Assembly (NCBI GenBank): GCA_020851635.1
Contig: JADZCJ010000025.1
Span: 1-32,797, forward strand
Length of the DNA: 32,797 bases
Reading direction: 5' to 3'
Origin: Anaerolineae bacterium
GTDB lineage: Bacteria; Chloroflexota; Anaerolineae; UBA4142; SHND01
The notes under the pieces were generated by a model, which worked only from the letters and a program-made list of their open reading frames with translations, searched no databases and had not been told where the DNA came from. Each line of letters opens with the position of its first letter. The stretch's first letter is position 1. Position numbers and translations under genes: made by a program. Positions 8,180 to 24,760 of this stretch are shown here, in pieces.

Positions 8180-8206
8180 GTTGGCTATAGGTACTGACCT
8201 GCCAAC
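8180..8206 (-). terminator. Hairpin at the end of the HNH gene, possible terminator
   Basis: GTTGGC and GCCAAC (8180-8185 and 8201-8206) form a 6-bp stem with an inner GGT/ACC pairing. On the minus strand it is followed by AATTTTA, a poor T-tract. It overlaps the HNH stop codon and may end the dnaX-to-HNH cluster. This is a weak candidate. Confidence 0.3.
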
Positions 8207-8598
8207 ACCAACCGTTCCCGTTCTAAAATCCGATCCGGATGGTTCATTTGTAGAATCAAGATTGTCACTCGCCCTTCAGGCGAAAGTCCTGCTAGAGCCG
8301 CGCTATCGAATTTGAAATGTTCTGCCCAGGTGTGCTTTCGCGGATTAAAAAACGCAGTTAGTTGGCCGGTTTGGGGATCAATTGAGCCAAGGTCAGTCCC
8401 TTTATACCGATTGCAAAAAGGACAGGCGAGCGCAAGGTTGTCGAACTCACTCGTGCCGCCATGCTTTTCGGAAATAATGTGTTCAATCTCAAAAGCCAGG
8501 AACGAAGCATTCTGCGGATACAAGCAATACTCGCAGCGATTCAGCGCGCGTTCCATGACAGCGTGGCGCAGCGTGGAAGGGATGGGTGTGCGGCTCAT
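8185..8598 (-). CDS. HNH endonuclease
   Basis: The 137-residue protein carries a compact HNH fold. A CxxC pair at Cys22/Cys25 and a second at Cys59/Cys62 should bind structural zinc, and the catalytic stretch has IEHI (His40), His46 and Asn54 of the ExNLALAC region. This is the McrA-like small HNH layout, expected to nick or cut DNA with a divalent metal. It overlaps the stop of the upstream RHH-like gene by ATGA (8595-8598), so the two are coupled. Such pairs are seen in cyanobacteria and Chloroflexota, but their role (toxin-antitoxin, defence or housekeeping) is not clear to me. Confidence 0.85.
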   Translation of the reverse strand: MSRTPIPSTLRHAVMERALNRCEYCLYPQNASFLAFEIEHIISEKHGGTSEFDNLALACPFCNRYKGTDLGSIDPQTGQLTAFFNPRKHTWAEHFKFDSAALAGLSPEGRVTILILQMNHPDRILERERLVLAGQYL

Positions 8599-8954
8599 TC
8601 CGCTTTGGCGAGCTGCTGATAGGCGTGTGCCTTGGCAAGGCGCACCAAATGTTCGAGCGTCAAATACCGCTCCATTTCGATTTCTTCGGCGCGTGATAAC
8701 TCTTCTTGTTTACTGCGTTCGAGTAATTCACTCATTCGCGCCTGAAGCGTGTCGGATGCTCGCAGGTCGAGGACTTGCCGGGGGGATGGATTCCCGGTTA
8801 GGGTTTCGATTATCTCTTCTTCGTCGGCAACGATGCCAGTATTGTCGCGGATTTCTTCGGCGAGAGCTCGCTCTAGCAATTCCGGCAGCCGTTCCTGAAC
8901 GAGCTCCAACCGCTTGCCCAATTCATCGGGCACACGAATGGTAATTTCCATCAT
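8595..8954 (-). CDS. Small RHH-like, coiled-coil-rich protein paired with the HNH nuclease
   Basis: The 119-residue product begins MMEITIRVPDELGKRL, a beta strand plus helix resembling the N-terminus of ribbon-helix-helix proteins. The remainder is strongly charged and helical (Glu, Leu, Arg rich). I do not recognise a defined family. It sits 2 nt downstream of recR and overlaps the HNH gene by 4 nt, so it is probably translated in a fixed ratio with the nuclease and could bind it or regulate it. An antitoxin-like role is inference only. The two adjacent ATGs (8954 and 8951) cannot be separated; I took the first. Confidence 0.65.
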   Translation of the reverse strand: MMEITIRVPDELGKRLELVQERLPELLERALAEEIRDNTGIVADEEEIIETLTGNPSPRQVLDLRASDTLQARMSELLERSKQEELSRAEEIEMERYLTLEHLVRLAKAHAYQQLAKAE

Positions 8955-8956
8955 AT

Positions 8957-9556
8957 TCAGACCTCTCGTCTTCCCTCCAAGGCACGCGTCAGCGTCACCT
9001 CGTCCGCATATTCCAAATCGCCTCCGACGGGCAAGCCGCGCGCCAGCCGCGTCATGCGAATGCCGAGCGGCTTGATGAGACGTTCAAGATACATGGCGGT
9101 CGCCTCGCCTTCCAGATTCGGATTCGTGGCGAGCAGCACTTCGGTCACACGCCCATCGCGCAAGCGGTCCAGCAGCTCCTTGATCCGCAAGTCTTCGGGA
9201 CCGATGCCTTCGACGGGTGAAATCGCTCCGTGCAGGACGTGATACAACCCCTTGTACTCGCGCGTGCGCTCGATTGCGACCAGGTCAAGCGGTTCCTCGA
9301 TCACACAAATCATGGAGCGGTCGCGCGTCTCGTCGCGGCATACATTGCACGGGTTTGACTCGGCAATGTTTTGACAAAGGGCGCAGGTCGTAATTTGCTC
9401 GCGCAGGTCGCGGATCGCGTCAGACAGCGACTCGACCTGGGTTTTTGAAGTCCGCAGCAAATAAAAGGTCAGGCGCTGCGCCGTCTTGGGTCCTATACCG
9501 GGCAGGCGGTGAAATTCCTCGATCAAACGCGTGACAGAACGCGGGGTCGTATCCAT
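8957..9556 (-). CDS. recR: Recombination mediator protein RecR
   Basis: RecR works with RecO and RecF to load RecA onto gapped, SSB-coated DNA. The 199-residue protein has the N-terminal helix-hairpin-helix ([15 protein letters not shown], about 14-28), a four-Cys zinc finger (CALC and CNVC, about 57-72), a Toprim domain beginning at ICVIEEPLD and the C-terminal [18 protein letters not shown] block. Length is normal for RecR. A GAGGA ribosome binding site lies 8 nt before the ATG. In many bacteria recR directly follows dnaX and ybaB; here two genes and an inverted repeat intervene. Confidence 0.96.
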
Positions 9557-9716: not shown

Positions 9717-11576
9717 TTAAAAATCATTGGCAAGGTTAGGCGGAGTTTTGTTCTGAGGCGCGGTATCAGACGTGTGTTGGCTGATGCGCCACAGACGGGT
9801 GAGCTCTTGAAAACCGCGCAGGCGGGTCTCGAAAGAGGTTGCCTGCAGCTCTGTCTGACTGCTTATCCATTTCAGCACCTCGGAATCATTCCAAAACGCG
9901 TCCGATACCAGAATGTCCGTCCCATCAGACACTCCGGCAATGCGCGCCGTAATATTGACTGTCGAGCCAAAATAGTCCAGCCGATTATTCAGGTTCACTG
10001 CGATGCAAGTGCCGGTGTGGATGCCCACTTTGAGCAAGAGCGGCGCGACCCTGTTGGCGGGATTTTCCAGAGCGCGCTGTGCAGAGTACATGGCGCGCAG
10101 CGCATTGACTGGACGGCGAAAGACCACCATAACCGCATCCCCCATGGTTTTGACGACCGCCCCATCCTCTCTTTGCACAGCGTTGCGGATCACCTCAAAA
10201 TGATTCAACACCCGTCCGAACGCGGGCGCATCGCCGATTTCGCGATACATTTCGGTCGAGCGCTTCAGGTCGGTAAAGACCAGCGTGAGCGAGCCGACGG
10301 AAAACTGCTCGCCCGCGCGCAGCGCCTCGTCGGCAAACAAATCGCGAAACGCCTGCAGCGCGATCACATCCGCCGCCGTGACCGAGTCATCGCTCCACGC
10401 CCAGCGTTCGAGGATAAACAACTGGTCCTGAGCTGTCGCGTTTTCGAACGTCAGGTGCGGTTCCAGATTGACGTGCGGCTCGCGGTCGCTCCAATCGTCC
10501 TCATCCGCGCGCAACATAGCTTCGGGCGCTCCTTGCGGGTCGGCATCCAGAAACTGTCCGCCGCGTTTTTGTGGGGTCCGGACGCGATAGCGCCCCGCTT
10601 CGAGTGGGATGGCGATTGTCGCCTGTGTGCGCGGCGGAAGGTGATGCTGAGCGAAAATATGCGGTGTTACTTGCGGACCACCAACGCAATACACGCGCCG
10701 GTTGATCGAACGCACCGCGGGATTCGGCAGAAAAGACAATTCGACCGAGCGGTCAAAGTTCACCCTGTAATCAATATTGCACGAATCACAATGGACATCT
10801 TTTTGGACCGCGTTCAGCGATTCGAGCTGCGTGCTTGGTCCCCGACACAGCGGGCAGAGCAAATCCCATTCGAGGTCCAGAATCCCCTGACGCGTGGCAT
10901 GTAAACACAATTCCAACACCTCGCGTCGCGCCGCGCCCCATGCGTCCGCCAGCCGGTACGGACGGATGCGCGCGAGCTCCAACTCGTCCGCATAGGTAAT
11001 GTGCTCGAACAGGAGGTCAATGAGCGCAGGTGAAAACCCTTGCGCGACAAGGTTTGTGCGCGCCGCATCCAGACGCGGGCGCGCGCCGGGGGTGAGCGCG
11101 AGAGAGTCCGCCGTGACGTGCGTCGGGGACCCCGCAGTCAGTTCCTTGTCATAGCGTCGCACGGCTTGCTCGATGCCGCGACGCGTCAAGAGACCGATTT
11201 GAACGGGAATCGCCAGTGCGCCCAGAAAATTGCGCGGCGTCGCCCGCGCGCTGTAAATGATGCGAGCGCCGCCGTTTTCGCGTCGCTGCAATTCGACGCG
11301 GATAACCAGCTCTCGCAGCGGACCGCGTGTGTATCGCCGGATGACGCCATACCGAAAAGGGCGCGTCCATTCGAACGGCTCTTCGTCCCATTCCACCGGA
11401 ATCCCCAAAAAGCGAAACCCCAAATGGCGGTCGGCGCCGTGCTGTCTGATGACGCCGGGGGTCAATGCGGGTACGCCTGTGTCGCGATTAAAGCGGTTCG
11501 TGTCCGCCACGCGCGTCCACATCGCTTCCGGCGGTGCCAGAGTGTCAAATTCCCACTTGTAGTTGAACTCGGACAT
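9717..11576 (-). CDS. Class III adenylate/guanylate cyclase with DUF5939-type N-terminus
   Basis: The 619-residue soluble protein has three parts. Residues 1-150 resemble the START/SRPBCC-like region found in DUF5939 cyclases. A middle region has a zinc-ribbon-like pair CPLC (241-244) and CDSC (263-266). The cyclase catalytic domain lies at about 425-560. The catalytic set is complete: metal ligands Asp436 (VFTDLKRST) and Asp480 (MGDAVMV), the purine-selecting Lys476 and Asp534, and transition-state Asn541 and Arg545 (VNITARI). The Lys/Asp pair favours ATP, hence cAMP. No membrane segment is seen. It lies between the CHAD gene and recR on the same strand and may share their transcript. Confidence 0.88.
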   Translation of the reverse strand: MSEFNYKWEFDTLAPPEAMWTRVADTNRFNRDTGVPALTPGVIRQHGADRHLGFRFLGIPVEWDEEPFEWTRPFRYGVIRRYTRGPLRELVIRVELQRRENGGARIIYSARATPRNFLGALAIPVQIGLLTRRGIEQAVRRYDKELTAGSPTHVTADSLALTPGARPRLDAARTNLVAQGFSPALIDLLFEHITYADELELARIRPYRLADAWGAARREVLELCLHATRQGILDLEWDLLCPLCRGPSTQLESLNAVQKDVHCDSCNIDYRVNFDRSVELSFLPNPAVRSINRRVYCVGGPQVTPHIFAQHHLPPRTQATIAIPLEAGRYRVRTPQKRGGQFLDADPQGAPEAMLRADEDDWSDREPHVNLEPHLTFENATAQDQLFILERWAWSDDSVTAADVIALQAFRDLFADEALRAGEQFSVGSLTLVFTDLKRSTEMYREIGDAPAFGRVLNHFEVIRNAVQREDGAVVKTMGDAVMVVFRRPVNALRAMYSAQRALENPANRVAPLLLKVGIHTGTCIAVNLNNRLDYFGSTVNITARIAGVSDGTDILVSDAFWNDSEVLKWISSQTELQATSFETRLRGFQELTRLWRISQHTSDTAPQNKTPPNLANDF

Positions 11577-11648
11577 GGAGAGCCAACCCGGGACATTCAG
11601 ACAGGGTGAACGGTTTTAGCCACCTGCATCGGGCGAAATTTTCAAGGA

Positions 11649-12905
11649 TCAGATTGACGCGACCGCCTGGGCTAGTCGCCTGCGATAGCGCGCCTCCGCT
11701 ATCGCCGCCCACTTTGCGGGCACATCCATTCGTAGCTCAGAAATGCGCGCTTGCAGAAAAGAGTGATATGCCGCAATCGGGCGAAAATCGGGCGCGGCCT
11801 CCCCTTGCGCTTTGGCGGTGTCCGCCTGTGCGCCAAGAAAATCCGTCAACGCCTGTCCCGCGACGACCGCATCCTGAATCGCGCCGAGTTGGTCTTGCAG
11901 CGCGACGAGGGGTTTTATCAGAGATTCGGTGATGCGAGTTTTTGCCTCATCAAACGGCAGTCGCATCCCCTGCGCCAGCGGCTCACGGAAAAATTCCAGC
12001 GTGTAGCGAAGACGTTTGATCGAGATACGCAGCGCGTGGAGTTGTTCGAGCGTCGCATCCCTGACGTTCGACCCACATGCGCGGACGGTGCCATACTCTT
12101 GCCACACCAAAGCGGGCAACACCTCGATCACGCGTGGCGAGGAACTCGCGTTGTCATCCTCCAGCAAGATACCCATACGCGTTTTCCACTCGGCTGCTCG
12201 CGCGCTGTCGAGATACTGCACGAGTTTGCCGTGACCTGCGGTGCGGTCCGCCTGCCACGCGGCGGCGAGTTCCCCGAGCCGGAACTGGTCCCGCTCGACG
12301 GCGGACGAGCGATATACGTCCAGATCCCCAATCAACACATCCAGATTACGAATGTGTCCCAACACATCGCGCAGCTCTTCCAGGTCTTTTCGCAGACGCC
12401 TGGCGCGTTTGGCGGCAAGATAACTGCGAAAAAGACGAAAAGCCGAGTTGAGTCGCCGGGACGCCACGCGCATATCGTGGACCGCCTCGCTGTCCCGAGT
12501 CGCGCGGACATCCTCTTCTGCCTGATTCAATTTGAAATATTGTTCCTTGATCACAAGGCGCGCCGCCTCACGCATCGTCGAATTTGCGCCTATCCCCTCC
12601 TGTGGGGATACGTTCGGAGCTGTGCCGGCGGTTTGGGCGCGCCTGAGCGCGGCAAAAGAAAAAGCGTTCAAGCGCTTTTCATCAAATCGAGCAAGGGTGT
12701 GACGAATCGAGCGTGTGCGGGTGTTCAGGGCGCGCGCAATGTGCGCGGGGTCCTTGCCATCGGCTGAATCGAGGAGGATGCGCGCCCGTCGGCGCGCGCG
12801 GCTGCTGGAATCGTCGAGTAACGCCGTTATCAGGAACCGCTCGTTATCGGCGAGGGAGAAGGCGGGCGTTTCCACGGCAAAAAAAAGGGTGGCAGAGCGC
12901 GGCAT
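11649..12905 (-). CDS. CHAD-domain protein with an N-terminal HTH-like segment
   Basis: CHAD domains are all-helical, His-rich and bind inorganic polyphosphate. Residues about 108-405 show the two conserved CHAD blocks, HDMRVASRRLNSAFRLF and HALRISIKRLRYTLEFF. Residues about 40-90 (DGKDPAHIARALNTRTRSI) look like the helix-turn-helix at the front of IS630-type transposases and some regulators. I see no CYTH domain. A DNA-contacting CHAD protein would be unusual; the HTH reading is by eye. It lies 34 nt downstream of ybaB, without a clear ribosome binding site, and 72 nt upstream of the cyclase gene. Confidence 0.8.
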   Translation of the reverse strand: MPRSATLFFAVETPAFSLADNERFLITALLDDSSSRARRRARILLDSADGKDPAHIARALNTRTRSIRHTLARFDEKRLNAFSFAALRRAQTAGTAPNVSPQEGIGANSTMREAARLVIKEQYFKLNQAEEDVRATRDSEAVHDMRVASRRLNSAFRLFRSYLAAKRARRLRKDLEELRDVLGHIRNLDVLIGDLDVYRSSAVERDQFRLGELAAAWQADRTAGHGKLVQYLDSARAAEWKTRMGILLEDDNASSSPRVIEVLPALVWQEYGTVRACGSNVRDATLEQLHALRISIKRLRYTLEFFREPLAQGMRLPFDEAKTRITESLIKPLVALQDQLGAIQDAVVAGQALTDFLGAQADTAKAQGEAAPDFRPIAAYHSFLQARISELRMDVPAKWAAIAEARYRRRLAQAVASI

Positions 12906-12939: not shown

Positions 12940-13308
12940 CTAACCCAGACCGGGGAAACCCGCGCCGAGTCCGCCAGTGACAGCTCTCATGCGCTCTGAC
13001 GCCATCGTTTGCGAGCGTTCGTGACACTCGTTCACTGCCGACATGATCAAATCCTCGAGCAGCGTGGGATCATCCGCCGACTCTTTGATGGCATCGGCGC
13101 TGACCTTGATTGCAGTGATCTTTTGATGCCCGTTCATGGTCACGGTCACCATACCCCCGCCGACCGTAGCGGTGGTGAATTCGTTTTCAAGCTGCTGCTG
13201 CGTTTCCAGCATCTTTTTCTGCAATTCTTCGACCTGTTTTTGCAGTGCGGCGGGATTGAATCCACCCATGCCCCCGCCCGGTTTGCCAAAACTCTTGTTT
13301 TTGCTCAT
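12940..13308 (-). CDS. ybaB: YbaB/EbfC nucleoid-associated protein
   Basis: The 122-residue product is a small dimeric DNA-binding protein of the YbaB/EbfC family. It has a Gly/Met-rich N-terminus, a long amphipathic helix (PAALQKQVEELQKKMLETQQ) and the family block VTVTMNGHQKITAIKVSADA. A GAGGAG ribosome binding site lies 9 nt before the ATG and overlaps the end of dnaX, which is 6 nt upstream, so the two are co-transcribed. Position after dnaX is the conserved arrangement. Confidence 0.94.
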   Translation of the reverse strand: MSKNKSFGKPGGGMGGFNPAALQKQVEELQKKMLETQQQLENEFTTATVGGGMVTVTMNGHQKITAIKVSADAIKESADDPTLLEDLIMSAVNECHERSQTMASERMRAVTGGLGAGFPGLG

Positions 13309-13314
13309 GTATCT

Positions 13315-14949
13315 CTACTCCTCTTCCGAATCATTATCTATAATATCTGAAACTTTGCCGCCCAAATTCATCCCCGCGCGAATCAGCGGATCATCCTGCG
13401 CCGCCTGCATTTTCGCGCGCTTGGGTGAAACGATACACTTGATCTGCACGGGCGCGCCAAACATCGCGCTCAATAGTTTGCTCAGCTGCGGCACTGCATT
13501 CTTGTCATTCTTGAAACGGTCTTGGTGCAAGGGATAGAAAAAGCCGACAGTCAGCTCACCCTTTTCAAGAGCCAACGGCTCGGCGTCACGCAAGAGCGCG
13601 GCGGAGGACTTGTTTCCTTTTTGAAACCGCACAATAATATCATTCCAGCTCCCTTTGATCGCCGCGAGCGATAAACCGCCAACGACCTCTTCGGGTTCGG
13701 GCGCGGGACGGGCGGACGTTCCTTTTTTCTTTTCTGGAGTCGCCACGCGCGTAAATGACGGTTCCGCCCTTTTCGGCGCAGCCGGGGCGTTCGACACAAA
13801 CGGGTTGGACGACGCGGCGGGCGCGGCGCGCGTCTGTGGAGCTGAAACAGCCGCATATGCGGGGGCGGGATCGTGCATCGCTTCGATGAGCGCCATTTCG
13901 AGCGGCAGTGTGGGACTGGCGCTGTGACGCAGTTCCAGCGCCGCCTGTGAAAAGAGTCGAATCGCCCGGGCTGCCTGTTCCGCATTAAACTGTGCTGCCA
14001 GGGAGCGCATTTCGACTTGGACCTCTTCACCTACATTCAGCATGGAATCGCTGTTGACGGCAAACAACATGACACCGCGCAAGTATTCGATCACATCCCG
14101 CGCCACCTGACGTGGGTCCGCGCCCGCATCCACCGCCTCGTCAAGCGCCGCAATCCCGCGCCCCACATCCCGCGACACAAGCCCCGAGACAATGGCGTGG
14201 ATATTCTCGCGCGAAGCCGCGCCCAGCAGCACCTGCACGTGCTTGAGCGTGATCGTGTCGCCGCTGTACGCCGTCAGTTGGTCGAGCAGACTCGTCCCGT
14301 CACGGAAACTGCCGTTCGCCTGTCGCGCGATCAGTTCCAACGCGGCGGGTTCCAAATCCATACCCTCTTTTTTGGCAATCTCGCCCAGCTCGCCCATCAA
14401 TTCCTTGAGCGAGGCGCGTTTGAAATCAAACCGCTGACAGCGCGAGGTAATGGTCGCGGGCACACGGTTGACTTCGGTGGTGGCAAGGACAAAAATAACG
14501 TGCGGCGGCGGCTCTTCGAGTGTCTTGAGCAGGGCATTGAACGCGGCATTGGAAAGCATATGTGCTTCGTCAATGATATACACCTTGAACCGCGCTTCAT
14601 TGGGGCGAAAATCCACCTTGTCCCGCAAGTCACGAATATTGTCCACACCCGTATTCGATGCCGCATCAATTTCGACGAGGTCGAGCAGCCGCTCTTGATT
14701 GATGGCGCGGCAAATCGCGCACTGGTTGCAGGGATGCTTGCCCACATCGGGGTCGAGACAGTTGACTGCTTTGGCGAGAATGCGCGCCGTCGAAGTCTTG
14801 CCGGTGCCGCGGGTCCCTGTAAACAGATAGGCGTGTGCAATCCGATTGAGCGCCAGGGCGTTCTTGAGCGTGGTGGTGATATGCTCTTGCCCCTGCACAT
14901 CGTCAAACGATTGGGGGCGATACTTGAGATACAGCGCTTGAGCGGGCAT
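13315..14949 (-). CDS. dnaX: DNA polymerase III subunit gamma/tau
   Basis: DnaX is the AAA+ core of the clamp loader. The 544-residue protein has Walker A GTRGTGKT (45-52), four zinc-binding Cys (64, 74, 77 and 80), Walker B with VYIIDEAHML, sensor 1 (ATTEVNRVP) and arginine-finger region SRCQRFDF. A lid and oligomerisation domain follow, then a Pro/Ala-rich linker (about 365-425) and a short C-terminal domain. In the linker, at codons 408-409, an A6 run follows AAG (minus strand 13728 to 13723), where shift products would be gamma-sized. The -10 box ends 9 nt before the ATG and there is no Shine-Dalgarno site, so the mRNA is probably leaderless. It is the first gene of the cluster running to recR. 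Confidence 0.95.
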   Translation of the reverse strand: MPAQALYLKYRPQSFDDVQGQEHITTTLKNALALNRIAHAYLFTGTRGTGKTSTARILAKAVNCLDPDVGKHPCNQCAICRAINQERLLDLVEIDAASNTGVDNIRDLRDKVDFRPNEARFKVYIIDEAHMLSNAAFNALLKTLEEPPPHVIFVLATTEVNRVPATITSRCQRFDFKRASLKELMGELGEIAKKEGMDLEPAALELIARQANGSFRDGTSLLDQLTAYSGDTITLKHVQVLLGAASRENIHAIVSGLVSRDVGRGIAALDEAVDAGADPRQVARDVIEYLRGVMLFAVNSDSMLNVGEEVQVEMRSLAAQFNAEQAARAIRLFSQAALELRHSASPTLPLEMALIEAMHDPAPAYAAVSAPQTRAAPAASSNPFVSNAPAAPKRAEPSFTRVATPEKKKGTSARPAPEPEEVVGGLSLAAIKGSWNDIIVRFQKGNKSSAALLRDAEPLALEKGELTVGFFYPLHQDRFKNDKNAVPQLSKLLSAMFGAPVQIKCIVSPKRAKMQAAQDDPLIRAGMNLGGKVSDIIDNDSEEE

Positions 14950-22084: not shown

Positions 22085-23353
22085 ATGGATCCGAACATGT
22101 CAGCAATAGAACAAAAATCTCCGTACCAAATCGCGCAGGAGCAATTTGACCTCGCCGCCGAGTTCATGGGCTTGGAAGACGACCTCAGGCATGTCCTGCG
22201 AGTGCCGAAACGCGAACTGACGACAACTTTTCCCGTGCGTATGGACGACGGCTCGGTGAAAGCATTTACCGGATATCGCGTCCAGCACAACGTGACACGG
22301 GGTCCCGGCAAGGGCGGCATCCGCTATCACCAGGATGTTACGCTCGACGAAGTGCGCGCTCTTGCCATGTGGATGACGTGGAAGTGCGCGGTGGTCAATA
22401 TTCCGTTTGGCGGCGCCAAAGGTGGGGTCGTCGTGGACCCGACCGGGCTTTCGATGCGCGAATTGGAAAATCTCACCCGCCGCTTTGCAACCGAGATCTC
22501 GCCCCTCATCGGGCATGACGGCGACATCCCCGCGCCGGATGTCAACACGAATCAACAGATCATGGCGTGGTTGATGGACACCATTTCAATGCACACCGGG
22601 CATCTCGAAAGCGCGATCACCACGGGCAAGCCGCTGGGACTGGGCGGCTCGTTGGGGCGCGCCGACGCGACGGGGCGCGGCGTAAGTTTTGTGGTGGCGT
22701 CCGCAGCCAAGTTTTTGAACCTGGATTTGAATGGCGCAACTACCGTTGTGCAGGGGTTTGGCAACGTCGGGTCGGTCAGTGCGACCATGCTGCATGATCT
22801 CGGCTGCAAAATAGTCGGGATCAGCGACGTGAATGGCGGGATTTGCAACAAGGACGGCATTGATCCCCACGCCCTGGTCCGCCACATGAAAAAGACACGC
22901 ACCGTCATTGACTATCCCGGCGTCGAACGCATCTCCAATTCCGAATTGCTTGAACTGCCATGCGAGATTCTGGTCCCGGCGGCGCTGGAAAAACAAATTA
23001 CCGCCGATAATGCGGCGCGCATCCGCCCCAAAATATTGGCAGAAGGGGCGAATGGTCCGACGACCCCCGAAGCGGACGAGATTCTGTTTTCAAACAATGT
23101 CTTTGTTGTTCCCGACATTCTCGCCAACGCGGGCGGCGTGACGGTCTCGTATTTCGAGTGGGTGCAGGACCTGCAATCGTTCTTTTGGAATGAGGATGAA
23201 ATCAATCACCGGCTCAAACTGGTGATGGACGCTTCGTTCCAGGCGGTCAACCAGCGCGCGCAGGCGCATAAAATTCCCCTGCGACTCGCCGCCAACATCC
23301 TCGCTATCGAACGCGTAGCCGAGGCGACGCGCTTGCGTGGGATTTACCCATAA
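22085..23353 (+). CDS. gdhA: Glutamate dehydrogenase, catalytically intact copy
   Basis: The 422-residue protein is a Glu/Leu/Phe/Val-type dehydrogenase that interconverts glutamate and 2-oxoglutarate plus ammonia. All key positions are present: Lys76 in GPGKGGIRYH, Lys100 in MTWKCAV, catalytic Lys112 in PFGGAKGGV and Asp152 in IPAPDV. The DATGRG segment and the nucleotide-binding loop GFGNVGS follow. Glutamate is the likely substrate from the K-rich pocket, but leucine or other dehydrogenases share the fold. It follows gatB after 9 nt, and AAGG lies about 5 nt before the ATG. A close but altered paralogue follows 111 nt downstream. Confidence 0.92.
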   Translation: MDPNMSAIEQKSPYQIAQEQFDLAAEFMGLEDDLRHVLRVPKRELTTTFPVRMDDGSVKAFTGYRVQHNVTRGPGKGGIRYHQDVTLDEVRALAMWMTWKCAVVNIPFGGAKGGVVVDPTGLSMRELENLTRRFATEISPLIGHDGDIPAPDVNTNQQIMAWLMDTISMHTGHLESAITTGKPLGLGGSLGRADATGRGVSFVVASAAKFLNLDLNGATTVVQGFGNVGSVSATMLHDLGCKIVGISDVNGGICNKDGIDPHALVRHMKKTRTVIDYPGVERISNSELLELPCEILVPAALEKQITADNAARIRPKILAEGANGPTTPEADEILFSNNVFVVPDILANAGGVTVSYFEWVQDLQSFFWNEDEINHRLKLVMDASFQAVNQRAQAHKIPLRLAANILAIERVAEATRLRGIYP

Positions 23354-23388
23354 TAAACAAATGGGGCCCGCGACTGCAGCTTGTTTAT
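23353..23388 (+). other. Inverted repeat in the gap between the two GDH genes
   Basis: ATAAACAA (23353-23360) is complementary to TTGTTTAT (23381-23388) with a 20-nt GC-rich loop. It begins right after the first GDH stop. It lacks a T-tract and may modulate expression of the second gene or be a processing site. Confidence 0.35.
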
Positions 23389-23411
23389 GTGAACTTGCCA
23401 TTCCGGGTCTC

Positions 23412-23431
23412 TAATCTCTGATCACTAATCT
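23412..23431 (+). repeat. Dispersed 20-nt intergenic repeat, copy 1
   Basis: TAATCTCTGATCACTAATCT matches the copy at 30253-30272 at 18 of 20 positions by direct reading. Both copies are outside coding sequence, one between the GDH genes and one in the valS leader. Confidence 0.45.
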
Positions 23432-23464
23432 CGCCCTTTAATTCTCGACGAGGAGAACGAACCC

Positions 23465-24760
23465 ATGACGATTCATGAAATGACAATGCAAACTACAGAG
23501 ACCCCGAGTTTGTGGAGGGTTGCATCCGCACAGTTTGACCGCGCGGCGGATGCGCTGAACCTCGAGGACCCGCTGCGCGTGATTTTGGGGAACGTCAAGC
23601 GCGAACTCGCCGTGAATTTTCCTGTGCGTATGTCCAACGGCAGGACCCAGGTCTTTGCGGGATATCGCGCGCATCACAACGTAAATATGGGACCCGCGCG
23701 CGGCGGCGTCCGGTATCACCCAAACGTCAATCCCGACCAGGTGCGCGCCTTTGCAATGCTAAACACATGGCGCGCGGCAATCGTGAACGTGCCCTTTGGC
23801 GGCGCAAGCGGCGGAGTCGTCTGTGATCCGCGCGGGCAGCTCACCGGCCGCCCCATGACGCAGCGAGAGCTGGAAAACTTGACTCGCCGGTTCATCACCG
23901 AAATTGATTTCTTGATCGGACCACAGTCCGATATTCTGGTGCCCGAGGTCAACATAACGCCCGAGATTGTTGCCTGGATGATGGATACCTACTCGATGCA
24001 TCACGGTCAAATGGTGACGAGCGTGGTTACGGGCAAACCGTTGGCGATTGGCGGAAGCGCGCTGCGGGATGAGGCGGGCGGTCTGGGCGTCAAGCTCGTC
24101 GTCGAAGCGGCGGCGCGCATGTCCGAACTGAATCTGGAGGGCGCCACTGTGGTGATTCAGGGGTTTGGGAATACGGGCAGCAACGCCGCCATGTTCTTGA
24201 ATGACTTGGGAGCCAAGATCATTGCCGTGAGCGATGTCACGGGTGCAATCATCTCTGACAGGGCGCTCGATCCCATCGAAATCGAACAGCACCGTGTTGC
24301 AAACGGCACACTCATGGGCTTTCGCAATAGTGAGGCGCTCGATGAGCGGGATCTGCTGGAACTGCCCTGTGATATTCTGGTATTGGCGGGGCTGGAGAAT
24401 CAAATTGACGCGACAAATGCGCCGCGCATCCGCGCCAAAATGATTGCCGAGGCGGCAAACCTGCCGACAACGCCGGAAGCGGACGACATTTTGCGTGACC
24501 GCAATATTCTGCTCATTCCGGATTTGCTGGCGAACGCGTCCAGTCTCATGCTCTCTTATTTCGAGTGGGTCCAGGACTTGCAGTCGTTCTTTTGGACCGA
24601 AGATGAAACACGCGCTCGGGTGCGCAAGGTGGTTACGGACGCATTTCTGAACGCCAAAGCCACCGCAGAGCGGCAAAAAACTGACCTGCGCACGGCCGCC
24701 CTGATGATCGCTGTCGGGCGGGTTGCCGAAGCAACGCGTCTGCGCGGAATTTACCCATAG
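23465..24760 (+). CDS. Glutamate dehydrogenase paralogue lacking catalytic residues, probable regulatory subunit
   Basis: The 431-residue product aligns end to end with the upstream GDH, sharing SYFEWVQDLQSFFW and the ending VAEATRLRGIYP. Every active-site residue I could check is changed: Arg79 for Lys (GPARGG), Arg103 for Lys (NTWRAA), Ser115 for the catalytic Lys (FGGASGG) and Glu161 for the catalytic Asp (LVPEVN). ATGRG is AGGLG. The nucleotide loop GFGNTGS and overall length are kept, and the frame is clean, so this looks selected rather than decaying. Thermus thermophilus is known to have tandem GDH genes with one regulatory and one catalytic subunit; this may be an analogous pair. GAGGAG lies 9 nt before the ATG. 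Confidence 0.88.
   Translation: MTIHEMTMQTTETPSLWRVASAQFDRAADALNLEDPLRVILGNVKRELAVNFPVRMSNGRTQVFAGYRAHHNVNMGPARGGVRYHPNVNPDQVRAFAMLNTWRAAIVNVPFGGASGGVVCDPRGQLTGRPMTQRELENLTRRFITEIDFLIGPQSDILVPEVNITPEIVAWMMDTYSMHHGQMVTSVVTGKPLAIGGSALRDEAGGLGVKLVVEAAARMSELNLEGATVVIQGFGNTGSNAAMFLNDLGAKIIAVSDVTGAIISDRALDPIEIEQHRVANGTLMGFRNSEALDERDLLELPCDILVLAGLENQIDATNAPRIRAKMIAEAANLPTTPEADDILRDRNILLIPDLLANASSLMLSYFEWVQDLQSFFWTEDETRARVRKVVTDAFLNAKATAERQKTDLRTAALMIAVGRVAEATRLRGIYP

Follow-up and report, generated by a model that had tools for sequence, protein, structure and literature searches.

The 32,797-nucleotide stretch analysed here (the window; contig JADZCJ010000025.1 of assembly GCA_020851635.1) comes from the 5.8-Mb genome of an Anaerolineae bacterium, and in it the usual contiguity of dnaX, ybaB and recR is broken. 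Between ybaB and recR lie 3.4 kb with two further genes, one for a CHAD-domain protein and one for a class III nucleotide cyclase with a DUF5939 region. Their presence in the dnaX-ybaB-recR cluster is the result of an insertion that has become fixed at the level of the genus. The explanation that we favour, and hold with about even confidence, is that they encode a signalling pair for phosphate or polyphosphate (polyP) status which is expressed in step with chromosome upkeep. A preliminary description of this DNA had placed dnaX, ybaB, the CHAD gene, the cyclase gene and recR in this order on the minus strand; the open reading frames (ORFs) and Pfam matches agree, and the order recurs in independently assembled genomes.

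The genus was sampled with the window genome and five others (G001-G005). Where the contigs cover the junction, dnaX-ybaB stands directly ahead of the CHAD gene in 5/5 genomes (window, G001, G002, G003 and G004; the G005 contig begins within the CHAD gene), and the CHAD and cyclase genes are adjacent on one strand in 5/5 (window, G001, G003, G004 and G005; the G002 contig stops in the CHAD gene). recR is the next gene after the cyclase gene in four of the five genomes with sequence there, the exception being G001, where two opposite-strand thymidylate-kinase-like genes separate them. The recR locus was recovered in 20 of 24 genomes searched, and in all 15 of these from outside the genus dnaX, ybaB and recR are contiguous, with neither the CHAD nor the cyclase gene between. 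An insertion at the genus level, one of the possibilities raised in the preliminary description, follows because the order is kept within the genus and the two genes are absent between ybaB and recR in all 15 outsiders; no member of the genus was found to carry them elsewhere or on the opposite strand. An assembly artefact was ruled out, the same order being present in five separately assembled genomes.

Protein identity within the genus falls to 41-59% for the CHAD protein and 65-76% for the cyclase. Pairwise ratios of nonsynonymous to synonymous substitution rates (dN/dS) were about 0.14-0.24 for the cyclase gene, 0.26-0.50 for the CHAD gene and 0.02-0.10 for recR, with dS near saturation. 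As judged from dN/dS values well below 1, both inserted genes are under purifying selection. Both are also probably co-transcribed with the clamp-loader, nucleoid and repair genes, because they share the strand of the operon and the gaps are 0-160 bp (Table 1). No terminator-like site was found in the gaps between ybaB, the CHAD gene, the cyclase gene and recR, the number of such sites being no better than chance, and promoter and terminator scans of the window gave chance-level results.

Table 1. Features of the dnaX-recR region of the window, in order of transcription; gaps are counted from the preceding gene, negative values being overlaps
Feature	Position	Strand	Gap (bp)	Basis
dnaX (clamp-loader gamma/tau)	13315-14949	minus		ORF; Pfam DNA_pol3_delta2 4e-46
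ybaB/ebfC, nucleoid protein	12940-13308	minus	6	Pfam 5e-26
CHAD protein (HTH-CHAD), 418 aa	11649-12905	minus	34	Pfam CHAD 1e-43
HTH region of CHAD protein, residues 40-87	12645-12788	minus		Pfam, slightly below cut-off
CHAD domain, residues 119-353	11847-12551	minus		Pfam; alignment with CtCHAD
START-DUF5939-class III nucleotide cyclase, 619 aa	9717-11576	minus	72	Pfam DUF5939 2e-17, Guanylate_cyc 5e-15
START/SRPBCC (Bet v 1-like) N-terminal domain of cyclase, residues 1-150	11127-11576	minus		Predicted fold; PDB comparison
DUF5939 match of cyclase with Cys4 (C241, C244, C263, C266; zinc-ribbon-like)	10701-11045	minus		Pfam, alignment, model
Class III catalytic domain of cyclase, residues 425-600	9777-10304	minus		Pfam, alignment, fold comparison
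recR	8957-9556	minus	160	ORF; Pfam
119-aa ORF	8595-8954	minus	2	
HNH endonuclease-like gene	8185-8598	minus	-4	

The CHAD protein matches the PF05235 profile with 150.3 bits against a curated cut-off of 25.6, and its sequence match to CtCHAD (6qv7/6qva) has a value of 6.2e-25. Residues H143, R146, R150, R186, R300 and Y301 align to the polyP-contact residues of CtCHAD (H253, R256, R260, R296 and R418/Y419), and these six basic or Tyr positions are invariant in the alignment of five CHAD proteins of the genus. Passages of the CtCHAD study report that mutation of the corresponding residues weakens polyP binding (PMC6537752). The prediction that the genus CHAD protein binds polyP is well supported by these positions, and the link of CHAD to polyP drawn in the preliminary description also agrees with the polyP neighbourhoods of CHAD genes elsewhere in the class.

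The same description had noted a helix-turn-helix (HTH)-like start of the CHAD protein. The match lies slightly under the Pfam cut-offs (HTH_29 26.8 of 28.1 bits, HTH_23 24.0 of 24.6), but CHAD proteins from other families in the class have this HTH ahead of the CHAD domain. In a scan of 30 CHAD proteins of the class (29 from among the top scorers in the 181 genomes with CHAD, plus that of G021), CYTH was present in 18, HTH_23 in nine and Ppx_III in five, and the architecture CYTH-HTH-Ppx_III-CHAD occurs in G021, G050, G131 and G118. Because class relatives have this architecture, the HTH of the window protein is considered to be inherited, and from its domain content the genus CHAD gene is a trimmed relic of this class-wide polyP protein. 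The protein of G001 retains HTH-Ppx_III-CHAD, and those of the window and G003 are HTH-CHAD (G003 by alignment); the G005 sequence starts within the CHAD protein.

CHAD genes of the class were labelled at 88 loci, mostly one per genus, of which 85 had CHAD at the cut-off (not L169, L243 and L286). In 17 of these 85, CHAD has one or more of ppk1, PPK2, sixA and ppx no more than three genes away. In G019, from the sister family, the order is phoB-phoR-x-ppk1-sixA-(CYTH-CHAD), with ppx on the opposite strand. No polyP enzyme gene was seen beside CHAD in the window, and the genus has its ppk1 at another site, with no CHAD, at each of the three loci read (L165, L172 and L173); that of the window genome is on contig C97. 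Tandem PPK2 genes were observed beside CYTH-CHAD or CYTH-HTH-Ppx_III-CHAD in several families (L205, L209, L223, L226, L227, L248 and L260; four genes labelled by Pfam, the others by similarity).

Thymidylate-kinase-like genes stand within three genes of CHAD at 10/85 loci, and a ParA-like gene at 10/85. The thymidylate-kinase (tmk)-like pair of G001 has counterparts of the same type in G021, G063, G131 and G194, at most about three genes from CHAD; its first gene is present in seven of 18 genomes searched and is unlinked to CHAD in G050 and G118. In tandem pairs near CHAD (L031:11899-13462, L170:3652-5309, L204:6579-8080 and L206:1577-3039), the first gene has Arg at the Lys position of Walker A (GVGRST) wherever the motif was read, and the second has a normal P-loop. 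It is possible that such pairs are polyP-linked nucleotide kinases with one altered subunit. A ParA/MinD-like ATPase gene directly 3' of CHAD, often with an overlap of a few bases, was seen at L214, L215, L217, L219, L220, L221, L229, L240, L246 and L261, and is a candidate for a system positioning polyP granules on the nucleoid.

The cyclase matches DUF5939 (PF19363) with 63.5 bits against a cut-off of 22.5, over profile positions 12-127 of 281. Its AF2 (AlphaFold2) model (mean pLDDT 87.5, pTM 0.82) has, in order, a START/SRPBCC domain, the Cys4 region, a beta-sandwich (about residues 305-395) and the catalytic domain. Residues 1-150 modelled alone (pLDDT 91) took the START/SRPBCC helix-grip fold, with PDB matches to TcmN ARO/CYC (Z 13.7), the abscisic acid (ABA) receptor PYL10 (Z 13.8) and the COXG-family structure 2ns9 (Z 13.2); Pfam gave no match with the isolated N-terminal and beta-sandwich pieces. 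The PDB comparison of the whole model was filled by catalytic-domain matches. The catalytic domain resembles Ma1120 (5d0e; Z 22.7, root-mean-square deviation 1.9 over 163 residues). Because of the START-DUF5939-catalytic lay-out of the model, the cyclase is probably soluble and controlled by a ligand.

The full catalytic set ascribed to this enzyme in the preliminary description is present apart from one position. D436, D480, K476, N541 and R545 are kept in the alignment; we take the two Asp to be metal ligands, N541 and R545 to act on the transition state, and K476 and position 538 to read the base. The second base-reading position, however, has Ser538 and not the canonical Asp. Among 85 aligned rows it is Ser in 73, Thr in 7, Cys in 1, a gap in 4 and Asp in 0, and the metal Asp, Lys, Asn and Arg positions are conserved in nearly all relatives. 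The Lys and Asp base-recognition pair is a feature of the canonical adenylate cyclase subgroup and is dispensable for class III membership. On its residues the cyclase looks active.

Relatives of the cyclase are widespread; 228 were confirmed, and the neighbourhoods of 80 that were kept were read. In the cyclase tree the genus (support 100) joins, weakly (94), an Anaerolineales clade of 25 rows. By raw count, PhoBR-like genes lie in the flank of 11 of these 25 loci and PhoU in that of one more; the PhoBR-like label denotes similarity, the NCBIfam PhoB and PhoR models having matched below cut-off. In the same clade PstB is found beside the cyclase gene at two loci (L120 and L144), and the flank includes ppk1 at five and CHAD at three. 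A gene for a cyclic-nucleotide-binding (cNMP-binding) protein is nearby in 18 of the 80 loci, all Acidobacteriota by title, and directly downstream in 17; one of these genes was checked by Pfam. A cyclic-nucleotide product of the cyclase fits these neighbours. In the Acidobacteriota loci (L080, L081, L112, L113 and 14 more) the row sucD-ndk-zinc-ribbon protein-4Fe4S protein-cyclase-ABC ATPase-cNMP-binding/DUF1003-HAD recurs, and there the cyclase and the cNMP-binding protein are likely to be a dedicated cyclase-receptor pair. In G052 the cyclase relative comes after an SPFH/Band_7 gene (L038:6596-10398); an SPFH partner for the cyclase was considered and rejected, as a search with the G052 Band_7 protein found none in the 80 loci.

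Linkage of the two genes was counted in 297 class genomes with a completeness of 90% or more. CHAD was found in 181, the DUF5939 cyclase N-terminus in 46 and both in 30. The two are within 10 kb of each other in eight of these 30, namely five genus members and G046, G228 and G270, which belong to one other family (f29) and have CHAD in a cluster with ppk1 and sixA, which in G046 and G270 also includes ppx. One ancestral CHAD-cyclase pair shared with the Anaerolineales was considered from the cyclase tree (94); the CHAD tree disagrees, and it is not claimed because the genus CHAD is not close to that of f29.

The surroundings of 85 CHAD loci and 76 cyclase loci were compared by means of 37 control proteins and 30 replication and repair queries, of which 24 came from E. 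coli and the other six from the window or CHAD loci. The p values ignore the shared descent of loci, and flank lengths differ. Within three genes, replication and repair genes made up 13/423 around CHAD vs 1/382 around the cyclase (p 0.002), and control genes 4/423 vs 6/382 (p 0.53). With the E. coli queries alone and the whole flank, the counts were 12/668 and 5/767 (p 0.05), and at CHAD loci the more distant genes, from the fourth outward, were equally rich in replication and repair genes (7/245). Replication and repair genes are thus commoner around class CHAD than around cyclase loci, which we treat as a lead. Among the arrangements are ybaB-recR convergent with CYTH-Ppx_III-CHAD at a distance of 20 bp in G180 (another family), lexA-CHAD facing a tmk pair and ruvA in two genomes of family f9, uvrB-gyrA-CHAD-PPK2 in G118, and recJ facing parA-CHAD in G287.

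In the favoured explanation, the ancestor of the genus acquired a polyP module within its dnaX-ybaB-recR operon, and its descendants retained it. The CHAD protein would bind polyP, probably at granules, and the START domain would place the soluble cyclase under the control of a small ligand. The cyclase would make a cyclic nucleotide, more likely cyclic AMP (cAMP) than cyclic GMP (cGMP), so that the two proteins, for which we infer one shared pathway, would report phosphate or polyP status. That the class III cyclase next door is a functional swap for the lost CYTH domain is speculation.

Several observations weigh against this explanation. In 22 of the 30 genomes with both genes, these are on different contigs or megabases apart, and in the f29 genomes the cyclase gene is about 5 kb from CHAD, past a PhoBR-like pair, with polyP and PhoBR-like genes between. 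CHAD evolves fast, and the proteins of G002 and G004 are scarcely more than CHAD, without the HTH. The CHAD tree, of 29 rows, whose first extraction covered one strand only and missed 15/29 loci of the class census, sets the genus with the unlinked CHAD of G030 (support 80), away from the ppk-linked Anaerolineales and f29 CHAD. The window genome has at least 10 cyclase matches and 18 cNMP-binding matches, none of the latter in this contig. It is possible, if somewhat doubtful, that both genes are passengers which merely borrow the operon promoter, a granule CHAD protein and a cyclase for an unrelated ligand with no tie to each other or to the DNA genes. The separation in 22 genomes, the many unrelated contexts of cyclase relatives, the fast divergence and domain loss of CHAD, and the two further genes inserted between cyclase and recR in G001 would all suit passengers. 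Such an insertion would, however, have to explain why the adjacency was kept in 5/5 genus genomes despite the fall in protein identity, and why each gene has polyP or phosphate neighbours elsewhere.

A direct coupling to the chromosome is in our view unlikely. In it, CHAD would anchor polyP granules on the nucleoid, close to YbaB or the replisome, and the cyclase would signal this onward, so that replication slows or repair is tuned upon a change in phosphate or polyP. Such coupling would account for the excess of replication and repair genes near class CHAD, for the four arrangements named above and for the ParA-like gene after CHAD at ten loci, and parts of a study in Pseudomonas describe the formation of polyP granules in the nucleoid region and a poor exit from the cell cycle when cells lack polyP (PMC9239181). 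Against it, the neighbour statistics have the limits given above, six of 30 queries coming from the window or CHAD loci and the E. coli queries alone giving p 0.05, and passages on two CHAD proteins report no binding to single-stranded DNA or RNA (PMC6537752). An extended form, which we consider improbable, would make class CHAD proteins chromosome-facing polyP devices beside recR-ybaB, lexA-ruvA, gyrA-uvrB, recJ and ParA-like ATPases; in the genus, such a device would be built into dnaX-ybaB-recR with a START-gated cyclase replacing CYTH, and the nucleoid polyP state would be turned into a cyclic-nucleotide signal setting replication or repair. It is very unlikely that the cyclase domain is inactive or makes neither cAMP nor cGMP, the protein being a sensor only. 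Ser or Thr does replace the second base-reading Asp in 80 of 81 rows with a residue there, but the other catalytic positions are kept, the fold is like that of active cyclases such as Ma1120, and class III enzymes having Thr at this position are active. Overall, the interpretation in the preliminary description, that polyP and cyclic-nucleotide signals may be tied to replication or nucleoid state or else that these are simple insertions, is partly supported: the insertion stands, the polyP half is well supported and the replication half is a lead only.

The components are of known kinds and the arrangement is new. With CHAD phosins of polyP clusters (PF05235; CtCHAD) the genus protein shares the CHAD fold, all mutation-tested polyP contacts, and relatives beside ppk1, PPK2, sixA and ppx, but it lies outside a polyP cluster, without CYTH and, except in G001, without Ppx_III, between ybaB and a class III cyclase gene. 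In Acidithiobacillus, a CYTH-CHAD class IV cyclase adjoins ppk1, folD and parA, and the authors propose polyP-regulated cAMP (PMC6416229, PMC10892726). As described there, CHAD is likewise tied to cyclic-nucleotide synthesis and a ParA-like gene, but in a single polypeptide of class IV (CYTH), whereas the genus has a separate class III START-DUF5939 cyclase, no CYTH and another genomic site. An archaeal cluster SixA-PPX-dTMP kinase-CHAD (PMC10892726) has a dTMP-kinase-like gene adjoining CHAD, a feature shared with G001 and others of the class, but its figure legend and the accompanying passages show no cyclase and no dnaX cluster. The dnaX-ybaB-recR operon of E. coli and others has the three genes in the same order; in E. 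coli ybaB overlaps recR, with translational coupling between them (PMC9610160), whereas here two genes intervene.

DUF5939 class III cyclases of Chloroflexota, Acidobacteriota and rhizobia have the same domains, residues and Cys4, the rhizobial plasmid copies being 31-32% identical; they differ in sitting in pho/ppk, sucD-ndk or unrelated contexts, and the listed plasmid copies are without START. This type of cyclase is found on 79 plasmid records of Rhizobium and relatives, 35 of which are predicted to be conjugative, and the ten listed copies match from residue about 180 onward. No open-licence paper that we found deals with DUF5939, with CHAD paired to a class III cyclase or with CHAD in a dnaX cluster. 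The wider interest lies in how stress-made polyP acts on the chromosome of bacteria. A natural row of genes for a polyP-binding protein, a nucleoid protein, a clamp loader, a recombination mediator and a cyclase offers a concrete, testable candidate for such a link, and places DUF5939 cyclases and HTH-CHAD proteins, about whose roles little or nothing is published, in a phosphate or polyP setting.

The 119-aa ORF and the HNH endonuclease-like gene that follow recR in the window have no counterpart in the examined stretches of genus relatives. The dnaX product of G001 reaches 920 aa because about 360 residues, perhaps an intein, are inserted in frame behind residue 129 (L031:5436-6512). Elsewhere in the window, at 22085-24760, there is a tandem pair of glutamate-dehydrogenase-like genes, assigned by eye.

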